A program made the translations under genes and the position numbers. Under the pieces are notes generated by a model. That model worked only from the letters and a program-made list of their open reading frames with translations, did no database searches and was not told the origin of the DNA. This document shows, one piece after another, positions 58,300-62,790 of a stretch of DNA of 64,000 bases (position 1 is its first letter; the number at the start of each line of letters is the position of its first letter). Source of the DNA: Hyphomicrobiales bacterium (GTDB lineage Bacteria > Pseudomonadota > Alphaproteobacteria > Rhizobiales > Rhizobiaceae); assembly GCA_900473175.1 (NCBI GenBank), contig UCKM01000010.1:62001-126000 (forward strand), written 5' to 3'.

Positions 58300-59358
58300 T
58301 CAACTCTCTGTTAGAGTGCGGTGCATTCGATCAAGAAAAATGAGCACGGTCTGCTTGCGATCGAGATTGAAAGCCGCAGCATCCCCCGCCTCGTTCTGCA
58401 TATCGCTCCACAGGCCAGACCAGCGGTTTGCCTGTGCAATATTCCCCTGCTCAGCAGCAAGTCGTGCTTTGGCAGCAATGCGTGACAACAGGTCTTCAAG
58501 GAAAAGGTCATACTGAATTTCCGCATCGCGGCCCGACAGAGCCGTCGCCAAAGCATGCGCCTGCGGCACATCGAAAACGGCCTTGTTCAGAATAGCATCA
58601 ACGGTCTCGGATATTTCCAGCCCACCAAATGCCAGCAGCAGGGCCGCCTTGCGAACACTGCCGTCGGCATGGGTAACAAGCGCGTCCGGATCTGCCATTT
58701 GCTCGGCATCAAGGCCGATCGCCGACAGTGCAAGAAGTAGATCTTCCCGCTCCAGAGGTTCGAACCGTATCGCCTGACAGCGAGAACGGATGGTCGGCAA
58801 CAGTCGCCCCGATGAATGTGAGATCAGAATGAACACCGTCCGCTGGGGTGGTTCTTCAAGAGTCTTCAGTAACGCATTGGCAGCATTGCGATTCATGTCG
58901 TCGGCGGGGTCGACGATGACAACGCGCCATGATCCATCGTGGGCGGTCCGGTTGAGGAAATGCGTGACGCGCCGGACTTCATCAACTGTGATTCCAGTCT
59001 TGAACTTGCCTGACTTTGCATCGACAGGCCGTGTGATGTGCAGGACGGCCAGATGGGTTCCACTGGCGATTTGACGGTATGGTGCGACTGAATAGTCCGG
59101 TTCGGCGAGTGCCAACGGTGCTTCCCGTTCTGCGGGATACTTCAGCATATGCCCGGCCAGATGAAACGCCAGAGTGGCCTTGCCGATACCCTGCGGCCCC
59201 TCAAGCAGCAAAGCGTGATGCATGTGTCCCGACTGATAGGCTTGCGCGAGGAATGATCTTATTCCTGCATGACCAAACAGTGCCGGGTTTGCCGAAGGCG
59301 CGGGCACACCATCGATGGCATCATGAGTTGCCGGAACATCAAGTACGGCATCACTCAT
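58300..59358 (-). CDS. holB: DNA polymerase III delta-prime subunit
   Basis: Clamp-loader subunit of 352 residues. Walker A reads [18 protein letters not shown], the sensor region is [20 protein letters not shown], and the SRC motif is in [14 protein letters not shown]. The start overlaps the tmk stop by four bases (ATGA), so the two are coupled. The tmk-holB-metG order is conserved in alphaproteobacteria. Confidence 0.96.
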
Positions 59359-60056
59359 TTGAACACCTCGGCGGCGCGCCTTGCCTTCATGCCGCGATCG
59401 ACCTTCAACTGATCGACAAGGACCGCGATTTCCCTCGCAATCTCGCCGGCCGGCCGATCCGCAGCAATGATCTTGCAGCGTTCAGGCTCCTCGGCGGCAA
59501 TGGCAAGATATGCATCGCGCCGCCGCGCGTGCATTTCTATGGTTTCTTTCTCGAAACGATCGGCCGCTCCCGCGCCGCGCCGGGCATTGGCGCGCTGCAA
59601 GCCGACCTCGGCTGGAAGGTCAAGTATGATCGTCAGGTCGGGCATCAAGCCGTTGATGGCGGCCCGCTCGATCGCCCGCATGAGATCGGGATCAAGGTCG
59701 CCGGTCACGCCCTGATAGACACGGCTGGAATCGATGTAACGGTCGCAGAGCACCATTCGCCCGGAACGCAGCGCCGGACGCATGACTTGCTCAACATGAT
59801 CATTGCGAGCGGCCGCAAAGAGCAACGCCTCCATGGCGGGTCCAAACGGTTCCACTGAGCCGCTCAAGATGACGTGGCGCAGCGCCTCGGCGCCTGGTGA
59901 GCCGCCCGGTTCGCGCGTTGCCAGCACGTCATCGCCATCGGCGCGCAGATGCTCCGCAAGCCGCGCAATCTGGGTGGATTTGCCAGCGCCCTCGCCGCCT
60001 TCGAAAGTGATGAATAGTCCTTGCACGCCGCGAGCCGTCTTTCGATGCAGAGTCAT
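59355..60056 (-). CDS. tmk: Thymidylate kinase
   Basis: Phosphorylates dTMP to dTDP, 233 residues from ATG 60056. Walker A is [19 protein letters not shown], the DRX motif is [14 protein letters not shown], and the lid is near [13 protein letters not shown]. The TTG at 60068 is a less likely start. It follows the DD-carboxypeptidase homologue after about 50 bases. Confidence 0.97.
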
Positions 60057-60106
60057 TATCTTCTGCAAATGGTTCTAGCGTTCGAAAATGAAAAGGTCGA
60101 GGCGCA

Positions 60107-61336
60107 TTAGAACTTGAGTTGCCGGACCCAGCCGGTCGTGGCTTCGAGCAAGGCGTCCACCGTGCGCTTCTTGAGGTTACCGACCTCAACTGCCTCAGCG
60201 GTGTAGACTGGTGTTTGCTGCACAAGTTCATCGCCGATCCAGATTTTCAATGTGCCGGCTGGCTGGTCGGCCTTTACGGGTGCAATGAGAGGGCCTTGAT
60301 AGACCACATGCGCCTTAAGTCGATCGCGGTTGGCGACGGGCACAAGCAGGCTCACCTTCTCGTGCGCTTTAAGCGCGACGGCGGATTTGATGCCGCCGAA
60401 CACACTTGCCTCGCCAATCGTTTCGTTCGTCGCAAAGACCTCGATTTCCTCAAACGCCTGGAAAGCCCAGTCAAAGATTCGCTTGGCTTCTTCCGCCCGT
60501 TCCTTGTCGCTTGCAAGTCCGCTGAGCGCAACAATATAGCGCCGCCCGCTGCGTTCGGCCGAGCCGACAATACCGTAGCCAGATTGTTCCGTGTAACCGG
60601 TACCCATGCCATCGGCGCCGATATCGAGCCGCAGCAACGGATTGCGGTTGCGCTGGAAGATATTATTCCAGGTGAAGTTGTCCTGGGCGTAGATGGGGTA
60701 ATATTCGGGATACTCCCGCTTGATATGGCGCGCCAGGGTAATGAGGTCGGTCAACGAAACACGCTGCTCCGGTGCGGGCAATCCAGTCGAGTTAACGAAG
60801 GTTGAGCTTTTAAGGCCGATCTCCCTGGCCCGCGCATTCATCATGTCGGCGAACTTCGCTTCTGAACCGGCGATACCTTCGGCCAGGATAATGCAACCAT
60901 CGTTGGCCGATTGTACGATAACGCCCTGTATCAGGTCGCCGACGCTGATCGAGGATTTCAGCTTGGCAAACATGGTCGAACCGCCTGAGGGTGCTCCGCC
61001 CGTCCGCCAGGCGTTTTCGCTGACCGTATACTGGGTCCCGAGTGTGATCCTGCCAGCCTTGAGCTCGTGGAAAACTACTTCCATCGTCATGAGCTTGGCG
61101 AGAGCCGCCGGCTCGATCAGGGTGTCGGCTGATTTAGCATAAAGGACTGTGCCGGTCTGGTCCTCGATCATCAATGCCTGTTTGGCCTTGGTATCAAACA
61201 GCCCATCCTGCGCAGCCACCCCCGCACTGCACGCGAATGTGATTGTCAGGCACAGGGCAAGGATACGGAACAGCTCAGCCAGGACACGTACGCGGTGCTG
61301 GAAATCAATTACCGTCATCGCGAACGACAAATGCAT
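60107..61336 (-). CDS. D-alanyl-D-alanine carboxypeptidase homologue lacking the catalytic Ser
   Basis: PBP5/6-type (S11) protein of 409 residues with a signal peptide (ALCLTITFACSAGVAA) and a C-terminal domain (about 305-390). The SxxK motif, normally PASLAKLMT, reads PAALAKLMT: Ala78 (GCT, 61103-61105) replaces the nucleophile Ser. The KTG motif reads GTG in DGMGTGYTEQSGYG (60602-60604). The SxN motif (SANDGC) is intact. It should not acylate peptides or penicillin in the normal way. ATG 61318 is an alternative start; both overlap rlpA. Family firm, activity doubtful. Confidence 0.92.
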   Translation of the reverse strand: MHLSFAMTVIDFQHRVRVLAELFRILALCLTITFACSAGVAAQDGLFDTKAKQALMIEDQTGTVLYAKSADTLIEPAALAKLMTMEVVFHELKAGRITLGTQYTVSENAWRTGGAPSGGSTMFAKLKSSISVGDLIQGVIVQSANDGCIILAEGIAGSEAKFADMMNARAREIGLKSSTFVNSTGLPAPEQRVSLTDLITLARHIKREYPEYYPIYAQDNFTWNNIFQRNRNPLLRLDIGADGMGTGYTEQSGYGIVGSAERSGRRYIVALSGLASDKERAEEAKRIFDWAFQAFEEIEVFATNETIGEASVFGGIKSAVALKAHEKVSLLVPVANRDRLKAHVVYQGPLIAPVKADQPAGTLKIWIGDELVQQTPVYTAEAVEVGNLKKRTVDALLEATTGWVRQLKF

Positions 61337-62648
61337 CGTTTGCCCCGGCCGCCCAAGCCGCCTTAAGCAATGTATCAGTATCTTTGCCGGTATCTGCGCG
61401 GGCAGTCAGTTCAATTCGACGGCCTTCGGGGCTGTCCACTTCGGACAACTCAACTTTGCCAAGCAGGGAAAGCTTCGACATGATCCGTGAGGCCTCGCCT
61501 TTGCTCGCGAACAGCCCGAGTTCGACATATTCGCCGGGTAGCGTGGCAAGGCCGGGCAACCTGCTCATGCTTTTCCATGATGCCGAGATTGCCGCGGGTG
61601 ACAAGATGCCCGTCGTCGCCCGTATCGTTTTGTTGGCGCTTGCCACTCGCTCGCTGGCATAGGAGCTCACAAACGGCGACTGTGCGCCTCTGGTTCCCTT
61701 GAGCGAACCAATCAGGATGCTCGGCTTGTCGTCCACATAGGGACCGATCAAGGGCAATACCGGATCAATATCCGTGCTGAAGTTCAAGACCGTAATAGCG
61801 GCGGGTGTTCCCTGCTGTTGCATGGAACCATTCAGGCGCGCGGCCTGATCATTGAGCGACAGTGGCTGAGTGCCAAGGCTCGCCATCTGTATGCCGACCG
61901 CCTGCTGCGATTGCATGCCGGGGATTGGAACAGGCGCACGCCGCGTCGGCGTGCCGCCGTTCATGGCAATCATAACGCCGGACGCCGGCTGTCCATAGGG
62001 ATCAACGCCCGGCGCATGATAGGAAGCCATGAGGAACCCGTCATCATTGCCTTCGAGCGGCGCCCGACCCACATACTCTACTTTCACATCGGCGGTGCCG
62101 GTGTGCTGGTAGTCGAGCACCGTCGCGGCCTTTTGCGACAGGTCGATTACGCGGTCACTGTGATAGGGTCCGCGGTCATTGACGCGGACGATTACCGAAC
62201 TGCCATTCGCCAGGTTGGTCACGCGTGCATAGCTTGGCAGCGGCATTGTTGGATGCGCCGCGGTCAGACGCGTGGTGTCGTAAATCTCGCCATTGGCAGT
62301 CAATCTACCATGGAAGGCAGATCCGTACCAGGACGCCTTGCCCTGCCGCCTGTAGCCCGGCTCTTCCTTGGGATAATACCATCTGCCTGCGACCTTGTAG
62401 GGCTGCCCGATCAGCTCGCGGCCGCCCCCTCGCGGTATATGCCGAAGATCCGTCACAACGCGTGGGCTGGCCTTCACGCCATATTCGGATTCTGCGAAAT
62501 ATTCCTTGGGATGTTTCCTGGCCACCTTCGCTTGGGGCGATGCGCATGCGGTCATTAGAGCGCCCACAGCGACAACACCCACAACTCGAAAAGCTTTGGT
62601 TTTTGACAATGCAGACCACCGGCCGCGCGGGCCGTCCCCAGGAAACAT
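61305..62648 (-). CDS. rlpA: RlpA-type septal lipoprotein with SPOR domain
   Basis: 447 residues from ATG 62648. A lipoprotein signal ends ALMTACAS. The double-psi beta-barrel lies at about residues 100-190 (GKASWYGSAFHGRLTANGE, VRVNDRGPYHSDRVIDLS), the region with lytic transglycosylase activity in RlpA. A long Ser/Pro/Ala linker leads to a C-terminal SPOR domain that binds denuded glycan at the septum. It is the first gene of the rlpA-dac-tmk-holB-metG-tatD-MBL-ybaK run. Confidence 0.93.
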   Translation of the reverse strand: MFPGDGPRGRWSALSKTKAFRVVGVVAVGALMTACASPQAKVARKHPKEYFAESEYGVKASPRVVTDLRHIPRGGGRELIGQPYKVAGRWYYPKEEPGYRRQGKASWYGSAFHGRLTANGEIYDTTRLTAAHPTMPLPSYARVTNLANGSSVIVRVNDRGPYHSDRVIDLSQKAATVLDYQHTGTADVKVEYVGRAPLEGNDDGFLMASYHAPGVDPYGQPASGVMIAMNGGTPTRRAPVPIPGMQSQQAVGIQMASLGTQPLSLNDQAARLNGSMQQQGTPAAITVLNFSTDIDPVLPLIGPYVDDKPSILIGSLKGTRGAQSPFVSSYASERVASANKTIRATTGILSPAAISASWKSMSRLPGLATLPGEYVELGLFASKGEASRIMSKLSLLGKVELSEVDSPEGRRIELTARADTGKDTDTLLKAAWAAGANDAFVVRDDGN

Positions 62649-62790
62649 GATGTATCGATAGCAGATCAGAACGATGACACAACCCCGACGCCCATCATGG
62701 AGTTGCATTAGCACTATAAGTGCCACCGATAGGTTGATAGCCCCTTAACAAGGCCTATAGTGTTGAAAAGTCGTCATTTACGGAGATCAC

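Follow-up and report, generated by a model that had tools for sequence, protein, structure and literature searches.

A full-length PBP5-like protein without its catalytic serine is retained at the rlpA-tmk locus of Phyllobacterium

The window, the whole stretch of DNA analysed here, comprises 64,000 nucleotides of contig UCKM01000010.1 from a member of the Rhizobiaceae. The nearest named relatives of the protein described below are from Phyllobacterium (L035-L039, 76-81% identity), which is taken to be the genus of the window. A dacF-type gene is sandwiched between rlpA and tmk, with all three genes on one strand (Table 1), in the setting that an initial annotation of this DNA had recognized. 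The open reading frame encodes 409 amino acids and is free of internal stops. Descent from the S11 peptidases is indicated by a Peptidase_S11 match of 208 bits against a cut-off of 27.6, and the PBP5_C domain, together with a predicted PBP5 fold, gives the protein an architecture of the PBP5 type. Translation probably begins at the ATG at 61318 (residue 7), whose overlap with the rlpA stop covers 14 nt (61305-61318). An ATG occupies the same 14-nt overlap in 18 of the 20 Phyllobacterium loci, and the overlap is 11 nt in the remaining two; its recurrence across the genus suggests that translation of dacF and rlpA is coupled. Residue numbers are counted from the start of the open reading frame (from the ATG at 61318, each is 6 lower). 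A C-terminal stretch of 18 residues has a hydrophobic moment of 0.43, and the helix modelled there (residues 388-406) is, by analogy with PBP5, a possible anchor at the membrane surface.

Table 1. Genes, domains, and active-site positions at the dacF locus (window coordinates)
Feature	Position	Strand	Remark
dacF-type gene, putative S11/PBP5-like pseudo-DD-carboxypeptidase, 409 aa	60107..61336	-	likely start 61318
Peptidase_S11 domain, residues 48-269	60530..61195	-	Pfam PF00768, 1.5e-61
PBP5_C domain, residues 295-384	60185..60454	-	PF07943, 7.6e-19
rlpA, upstream	61305..62726	-	stop overlaps likely dacF start by 14 nt
tmk (thymidylate kinase), downstream	59355..60068	-	same strand as dacF
Glu75 replacing Pro, three residues ahead of position 78	61112..61114	-	fixed in Phyllobacterium
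Codon GCT, Ala78 replacing the SxxK catalytic serine	61103..61105	-	Ala in 20/20 Phyllobacterium genomes
Lys81, lysine of SxxK, retained	61094..61096	-	Lys in 171/171 family genomes read
SxN motif Ser143-Ala-Asn145, retained	60902..60910	-	Asn145 in 171/171 family genomes read
Codon GGT, Gly245 replacing the KTG lysine	60602..60604	-	motif reads Gly245-T-G
Arg280, matching the Arg that follows KTG in solved PBP5/PBP6	60497..60499	-	Arg in 171/171 family genomes read
C-terminal helix, residues 388-406	60119..60175	-	predicted model; possible membrane-surface anchor

Two residues by which S11 enzymes are recognized are missing from the window protein: the SxxK serine is Ala78 (PAALAKLM, residues 76-83) and the KTG lysine is Gly245 (DGMGTGYT, residues 242-249), while the SxN motif is present. 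The initial annotation had read both replacements, together with an unbroken SxN motif and a full-length frame; both changes are confirmed, each at exactly the codon named. In alignments, Arg280 matches the arginine that follows KTG in PBP5 and PBP6 (Arg248 of E. coli PBP5), a residue that contacts the carboxylate of the substrate. An arginine at residue 293 (60458-60460) is conserved in 95% or more of 78 intact orthologues. It is missing from all 20 Phyllobacterium genomes and from roughly 85% of the 89 other degenerate sequences, and so seems to be lost along with the KTG lysine.

The AlphaFold2 model of the protein, built with 40 sequences, has a mean pLDDT of 85, and the ten-residue blocks around the motifs score 94-98 (SxxK), 91 (SxN), and 90 (KTG). 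Among solved structures it comes closest to PBP5 of P. aeruginosa (4k91_B), with 38% identity, Z 39.7, and an rmsd of 3.6 over 341 residues; E. coli PBP6 comes next, one of its entries containing a substrate fragment. The fold of the model is thus ordinary, and the chemistry alone is missing. The window protein shares this predicted fold, the order of the S11 and PBP5_C domains, a predicted C-terminal helix, and the rlpA neighbor with PBP5/DacA and PBP6/DacC of E. coli and PBP5/DacC of P. aeruginosa, in which species rlpA adjoins dacA or dacC (PMC9712689). Unlike those S11 proteins, it lacks both the catalytic serine and the KTG lysine, a state fixed in 20 genomes of one genus.

Each of the 20 Phyllobacterium genomes has one dacF match at 1e-100, and every one of these reads PAAL[AV]KLM and DGMGTG[YF]T. 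Ala78 is encoded by GCG in 14 genomes, GCT in three, and GCA in three, and Gly245 by four different codons; both residues are therefore old and have been held while their codons drifted. The median pairwise dN/dS of dacF is 0.052 (residues 46-395, 173 of 190 pairs), at a median dS of 1.59 that is near saturation, and is the lowest of the three neighboring genes, with 0.076 for tmk and 0.131 for rlpA over the available parts of these neighbors in the same genomes. The intact orthologues of the whole family have a median dN/dS of 0.215 (1930 pairs), a value from a far more divergent set that is not comparable with that of the genus. The 78 intact orthologues have 100 sites with conservation of 95% or higher; 90 of these reach that level in Phyllobacterium too, and 56 do so in the 89 other degenerate sequences. 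The motif segments are almost invariant throughout the genus. Loss of the catalytic residues under purifying selection is one mark of a functional pseudoenzyme, and Phyllobacterium dacF displays it.

The orthologue was read in 171 Rhizobiaceae genomes representing 96 genera by group code, 20 of them Phyllobacterium. A family search over a partly different set of 171 genomes matched 162 of them at 1e-60, of which 152 were read (left out, mostly from the weak end of the matches, were G069, G086, which is partial, G091, G099, G133, G135, G137, G168, G174, and G183); the other 19 genomes read were 17 further Phyllobacterium plus G239 and G261, picked after the pattern search for the serine loss described below. 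The nine genomes with no dacF match at 1e-60 are G024, G025, G087, G098, G118, G123, G153, G202, and G209, six of which are 2 Mb or smaller. Ser78, Ser143, and Lys245 are all present in 74 of the genomes read (48 genera), and the remaining 97 are degenerate, so that the orthologue has lost at least one of these residues in 48 of the 96 genera sampled, an extent that the initial annotation did not foresee. The KTG lysine is gone in every degenerate genome: alone in 20 (13 genera), with Ser143 in 52 (34 genera), with Ser78 in 24 (3 genera), and with both serines in one, which has Thr at position 78. The expectation that the KTG change would be common in rhizobia and the serine loss rare thus holds for the family, the SxxK serine being absent from 25 of 171 genomes (Ala in 24, Thr in one), 20 of which are Phyllobacterium. 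No genome among the 171 has lost either serine while keeping Lys245. Intact and degenerate forms are never mixed within one genus, but outside Phyllobacterium few genomes per genus were sampled. Lys81, Asn145, and Arg280 are present in all 171 genomes, including all 97 degenerate ones. Thr246 is present in every one of the 74 intact genomes and in 70 of the 97 degenerate ones, with Phyllobacterium among those that retain it.

Among 80 named loci (one unscored), the orthologue is degenerate in Rhizobium (13/13), Sinorhizobium (5/5), Aminobacter (2/2), and, by NCBI name, Mesorhizobium (11/13), and intact in Nitratireductor (6/7) and Hoeflea (2/2); Tianweitania populi has GTG together with Ala78. 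Of 13 genomes read from the order but outside the family, 10 are intact, the exceptions being L265, L268, and L270. L270, from another family of the order, reads AxxK/AxN/FLG, and L260, from a 1.9-Mb genome within the family, reads TxxK/NxN/AAA; all three catalytic residues are gone from both. The motif positions of L268 (G046) are SxxL, IxY, and MVG, possibly a disturbed reading and not a true change of the protein. In six of the 13 two-copy genomes described below (L276, L278, L280, L283, L284, and L298), the locus copy has Glu for the KTG lysine (ETG or EIG), a reversal of charge. Flanks were long enough in 74 of the 171 genomes, and rlpA or tmk adjoins dacF in all 74 and both do in 67 (42 of 44 degenerate, 25 of 30 intact); the locus of the remaining 97 genomes is taken from orthology. 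A DNA-pattern search for the serine loss matched 15 of 394 family genomes, and 12 of these matches are dacF (eight Phyllobacterium, two g61, two g104), the other three (G144, G155, and G274) being chance matches in unrelated frames. The same search at the level of the class (385 genomes) gave four matches, in which the window's own protein is the sole S11 protein and the other three lie in an unrelated long open reading frame. The pattern, PAA-x-[AT]-K-x-M, is strict in accepting Ala or Thr and not Val two residues past the Ala; since it sees Ala in one exact context only, these counts are lower bounds.

The number of losses was estimated on an IQ-TREE phylogeny of 92 rows with the motif columns masked. 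An earlier set comprised 285 rows, three of them short after cutting at stops (L025, L111, and L208), and 204 were kept, the rest being near-identical; 22 rows whose reading ran past neighboring stops were cut at the stop for the trees. From the 285 rows, 26 were picked by hand and the rest of the 92 by identity, and L025, L111, L208, L255, L256, L260, L265, L268, and L270 were left out. Ala78 rows fall in three separate positions. One is Phyllobacterium (support 100/100). A second is a Tianweitania group (100/99), nested at 100/100 with a relative that has GTG but keeps the serine. The third is a pair of g104 genomes (100/95), whose third congener, G261, keeps Ser78 and has lost Ser143. The fewest changes of Ser78 on the tree are three, and forcing all Ala78 rows into one clade costs 69 log-likelihood units (p-AU 0.006, for a group named after the first tree was seen), which rejects a single origin. 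The serine-to-alanine change arose at least three times independently, each time with the KTG lysine gone too, a recurrence not anticipated from the window. If placed on the tree, L260 (Thr78) would add one serine loss and L270 another Ala. The KTG lysine has been lost seven times if regain is disallowed and changed five times under free-direction parsimony, and the SxN serine 18 and 13 times, respectively. The KTG lysine accordingly goes first, and either serine may be lost afterward. The backbone has weak forks and intact rows nest among degenerate ones, so that, formally, some lineages may have regained the KTG lysine.

Two DacF-type matches at 1e-60 occur in 13 of the 171 family genomes searched, and in all 13 one copy has all three residues and the other is degenerate. 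Within flanks of about 1.5 kb, the degenerate copy lies beside tmk in 13 of 13 and beside rlpA in 12 of 13, and the intact second copy has neither neighbor in any of the 13. Among 172 loci with flanks, in which some species are counted twice and a single missing neighbor may reflect a contig end, both neighbors flank 96 of the 98 degenerate copies and 53 of the 61 intact copies at the locus, and none of the 13 intact copies elsewhere. A degenerate copy retained alongside an active one is hard to credit as a mere leftover. The window genome itself contains three other S11 genes with SLTK, SxN, and KTG motifs, which speaks against a general loss of DD-carboxypeptidases and means that carboxypeptidase capacity need not depend on the window gene. 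The initial annotation had proposed a search for a second active DacF-type gene; these three S11 genes carry full motifs, and no PBP5_C match beyond the window protein was found in the same genome. A match to the S13 family was likewise not found there.

Acylation in penicillin-binding proteins needs the serine. With neither the nucleophile nor the KTG lysine, no acyl-enzyme would form, and hence no DD-carboxypeptidase activity and no covalent binding of penicillin would be expected of the window protein. The S44G mutant of E. coli PBP5 resembles it in having the nucleophile removed from an otherwise whole protein, and is described as neither binding penicillin nor having carboxypeptidase activity (PMC2909392). 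From this precedent and the need for the serine, we strongly infer that catalysis is lost in the window protein, which would also make it blind to acylation by beta-lactams. The pseudoenzyme reading of the initial annotation is supported by genus-wide fixation, strong purifying selection, the predicted PBP5 fold, and the three intact S11 proteins elsewhere in the genome.

The protein probably does a useful job that requires no cutting. The reading we favor, with a probability of roughly 0.65, is that of an exported, PBP5-shaped, acylation-blind protein kept for a non-catalytic role in the rlpA wall-remodeling module, likely through binding in its pocket. In this proposal, Ala78 and Gly245 would prevent the acyl-enzyme from forming, and selection would retain dacF for its role beside RlpA. 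The most likely mechanism is that a pocket with Lys81, Asn145, and Arg280 would reversibly hold D-Ala-D-Ala stem peptides or a protein segment, while the body of the protein and PBP5_C would position RlpA or partners in division or polar growth. Since selection keeps the fold, Lys81, Asn145, and Arg280, and the locus, we favor such reversible binding of a stem peptide or partner coupled to RlpA. The ligand and partner are proposed only, as is the link to RlpA, which comes from gene order and a shared phenotype. The PBP5(S44G) mutant loses its septal localization and does not complement (PMC2909392), whereas the serine-less window protein is under strong selection; removing the serine is thus not enough to turn an ordinary PBP5 into a functional binder. 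This loss of localization counts against the peptide version of the proposal, though the mutant protein had not evolved without its serine, and so does the absence of Thr246 from 27 of the 97 degenerate genomes.

Binding in the pocket has to be weighed against a role in which the pocket is irrelevant and the protein serves purely as a platform on which RlpA, FtsK-like proteins, or partners in polar growth assemble. In vitro, the strongest partners of P. aeruginosa RlpA include two class C PBPs (PMC9712689), and in E. coli, DacA is a candidate FtsK partner, with deletion of either dacA or rlpA suppressing ftsK44 at least partly (PMC6113214). The SxN serine and KTG lysine have been lost many times in relatives, and Thr246 is gone in 27 of 97 degenerate genomes; this and the 56 of 100 conserved sites kept in the other degenerate sequences indicate that not all relatives have an intact pocket. 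A spectator pocket, however, would have no need of Lys81, Asn145, and Arg280 in 171 of 171 genomes or of nearly invariant motif segments in Phyllobacterium, and we regard a pure platform as unlikely, if still deserving of weight; the three residues may be kept for folding. Residual or different hydrolysis, by Lys81 and a migrated residue such as Glu75, is very improbable. Lys81 and the SxN motif do remain, and position 75 stands out as Glu in all 20 Phyllobacterium genomes versus Pro in all 78 intact orthologues, but the other Ala78 lineages lack this residue (the Tianweitania group has Ala there, and the two g104 genomes have Pro and Ala), the KTG lysine is absent too, and no serine-less S11 enzyme is known to us to be active. 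A decaying gene or an error of sequencing or assembly, which an Ala78 codon one base away from a serine codon might bring to mind, is practically ruled out by both changes in 20 of 20 genomes, several synonymous codons, a dN/dS of 0.05, full length, and the absence of stops.

The favored reading, pocket binding in the rlpA module, may be extended to the family, tentatively and with less than even confidence. The DacF proteins of the Rhizobiaceae rlpA/tmk locus would be recurrently evolved, penicillin-blind sensors of the wall, reversible readers of D-Ala-D-Ala stems that place RlpA at sites of growth or division while another DacF-type or S11 enzyme covers the carboxypeptidase work. Such proteins would have dropped the KTG lysine first and then the SxN or SxxK serine, keeping Lys81, Asn145, and Arg280, and Phyllobacterium would stand out among them as the lineage that has fixed the nucleophile loss. 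Genetic data from relatives may speak for function without full motifs, as in the favored reading. The telomere-resolvase domain, which we take to be a marker of Agrobacterium, is found in g42 alone among 20 genera tested (two of 33 genomes), and g42 is taken as Agrobacterium from this match; its two genomes read SxxK, NxN, and GLG. In A. tumefaciens, insertions in Atu1499 (annotated as a DD-carboxypeptidase) and in Atu1500 (RlpA) both show a synthetic detrimental interaction with loss of yejABEF, which encodes the muropeptide importer (PMC9790009); as a transposon phenotype, that of Atu1499 could be polar. If Atu1499 matches the g42 state, as the two genomes suggest, a motif-degenerate member matters for the wall. 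In R. leguminosarum, the dacF gene RL2477 promotes root colonization (PMC11103875), though it may not be the rlpA/tmk copy.

Pseudo-hydrolases that act on the wall are already known, among them DipM and other LytM proteins. DipM of Caulobacter, a LytM pseudo-hydrolase, is an alphaproteobacterial precedent for how a dead wall-hydrolase fold may work: it binds and regulates wall enzymes, and its degenerate groove has been proposed as a docking site (PMC10336132). Its fold is unrelated to that of the window protein, whose partners are proposed only. Searches of an open-licence paper library turned up no description of a serine-less or degenerate DacF from rhizobia.

Low-molecular-mass PBPs are seen as enzymes and penicillin targets, and here one is kept without its chemistry, throughout the Phyllobacterium genomes sampled and, in a weaker form, in half of the family genera sampled. 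Automatic labels of "D-alanyl-D-alanine carboxypeptidase" at the rhizobial rlpA/tmk locus are accordingly doubtful. The locus offers a natural test of the roles that PBP5-like proteins have besides cutting, and, in bacteria with growth at a single pole, it connects a PBP5-like protein with the rlpA module.
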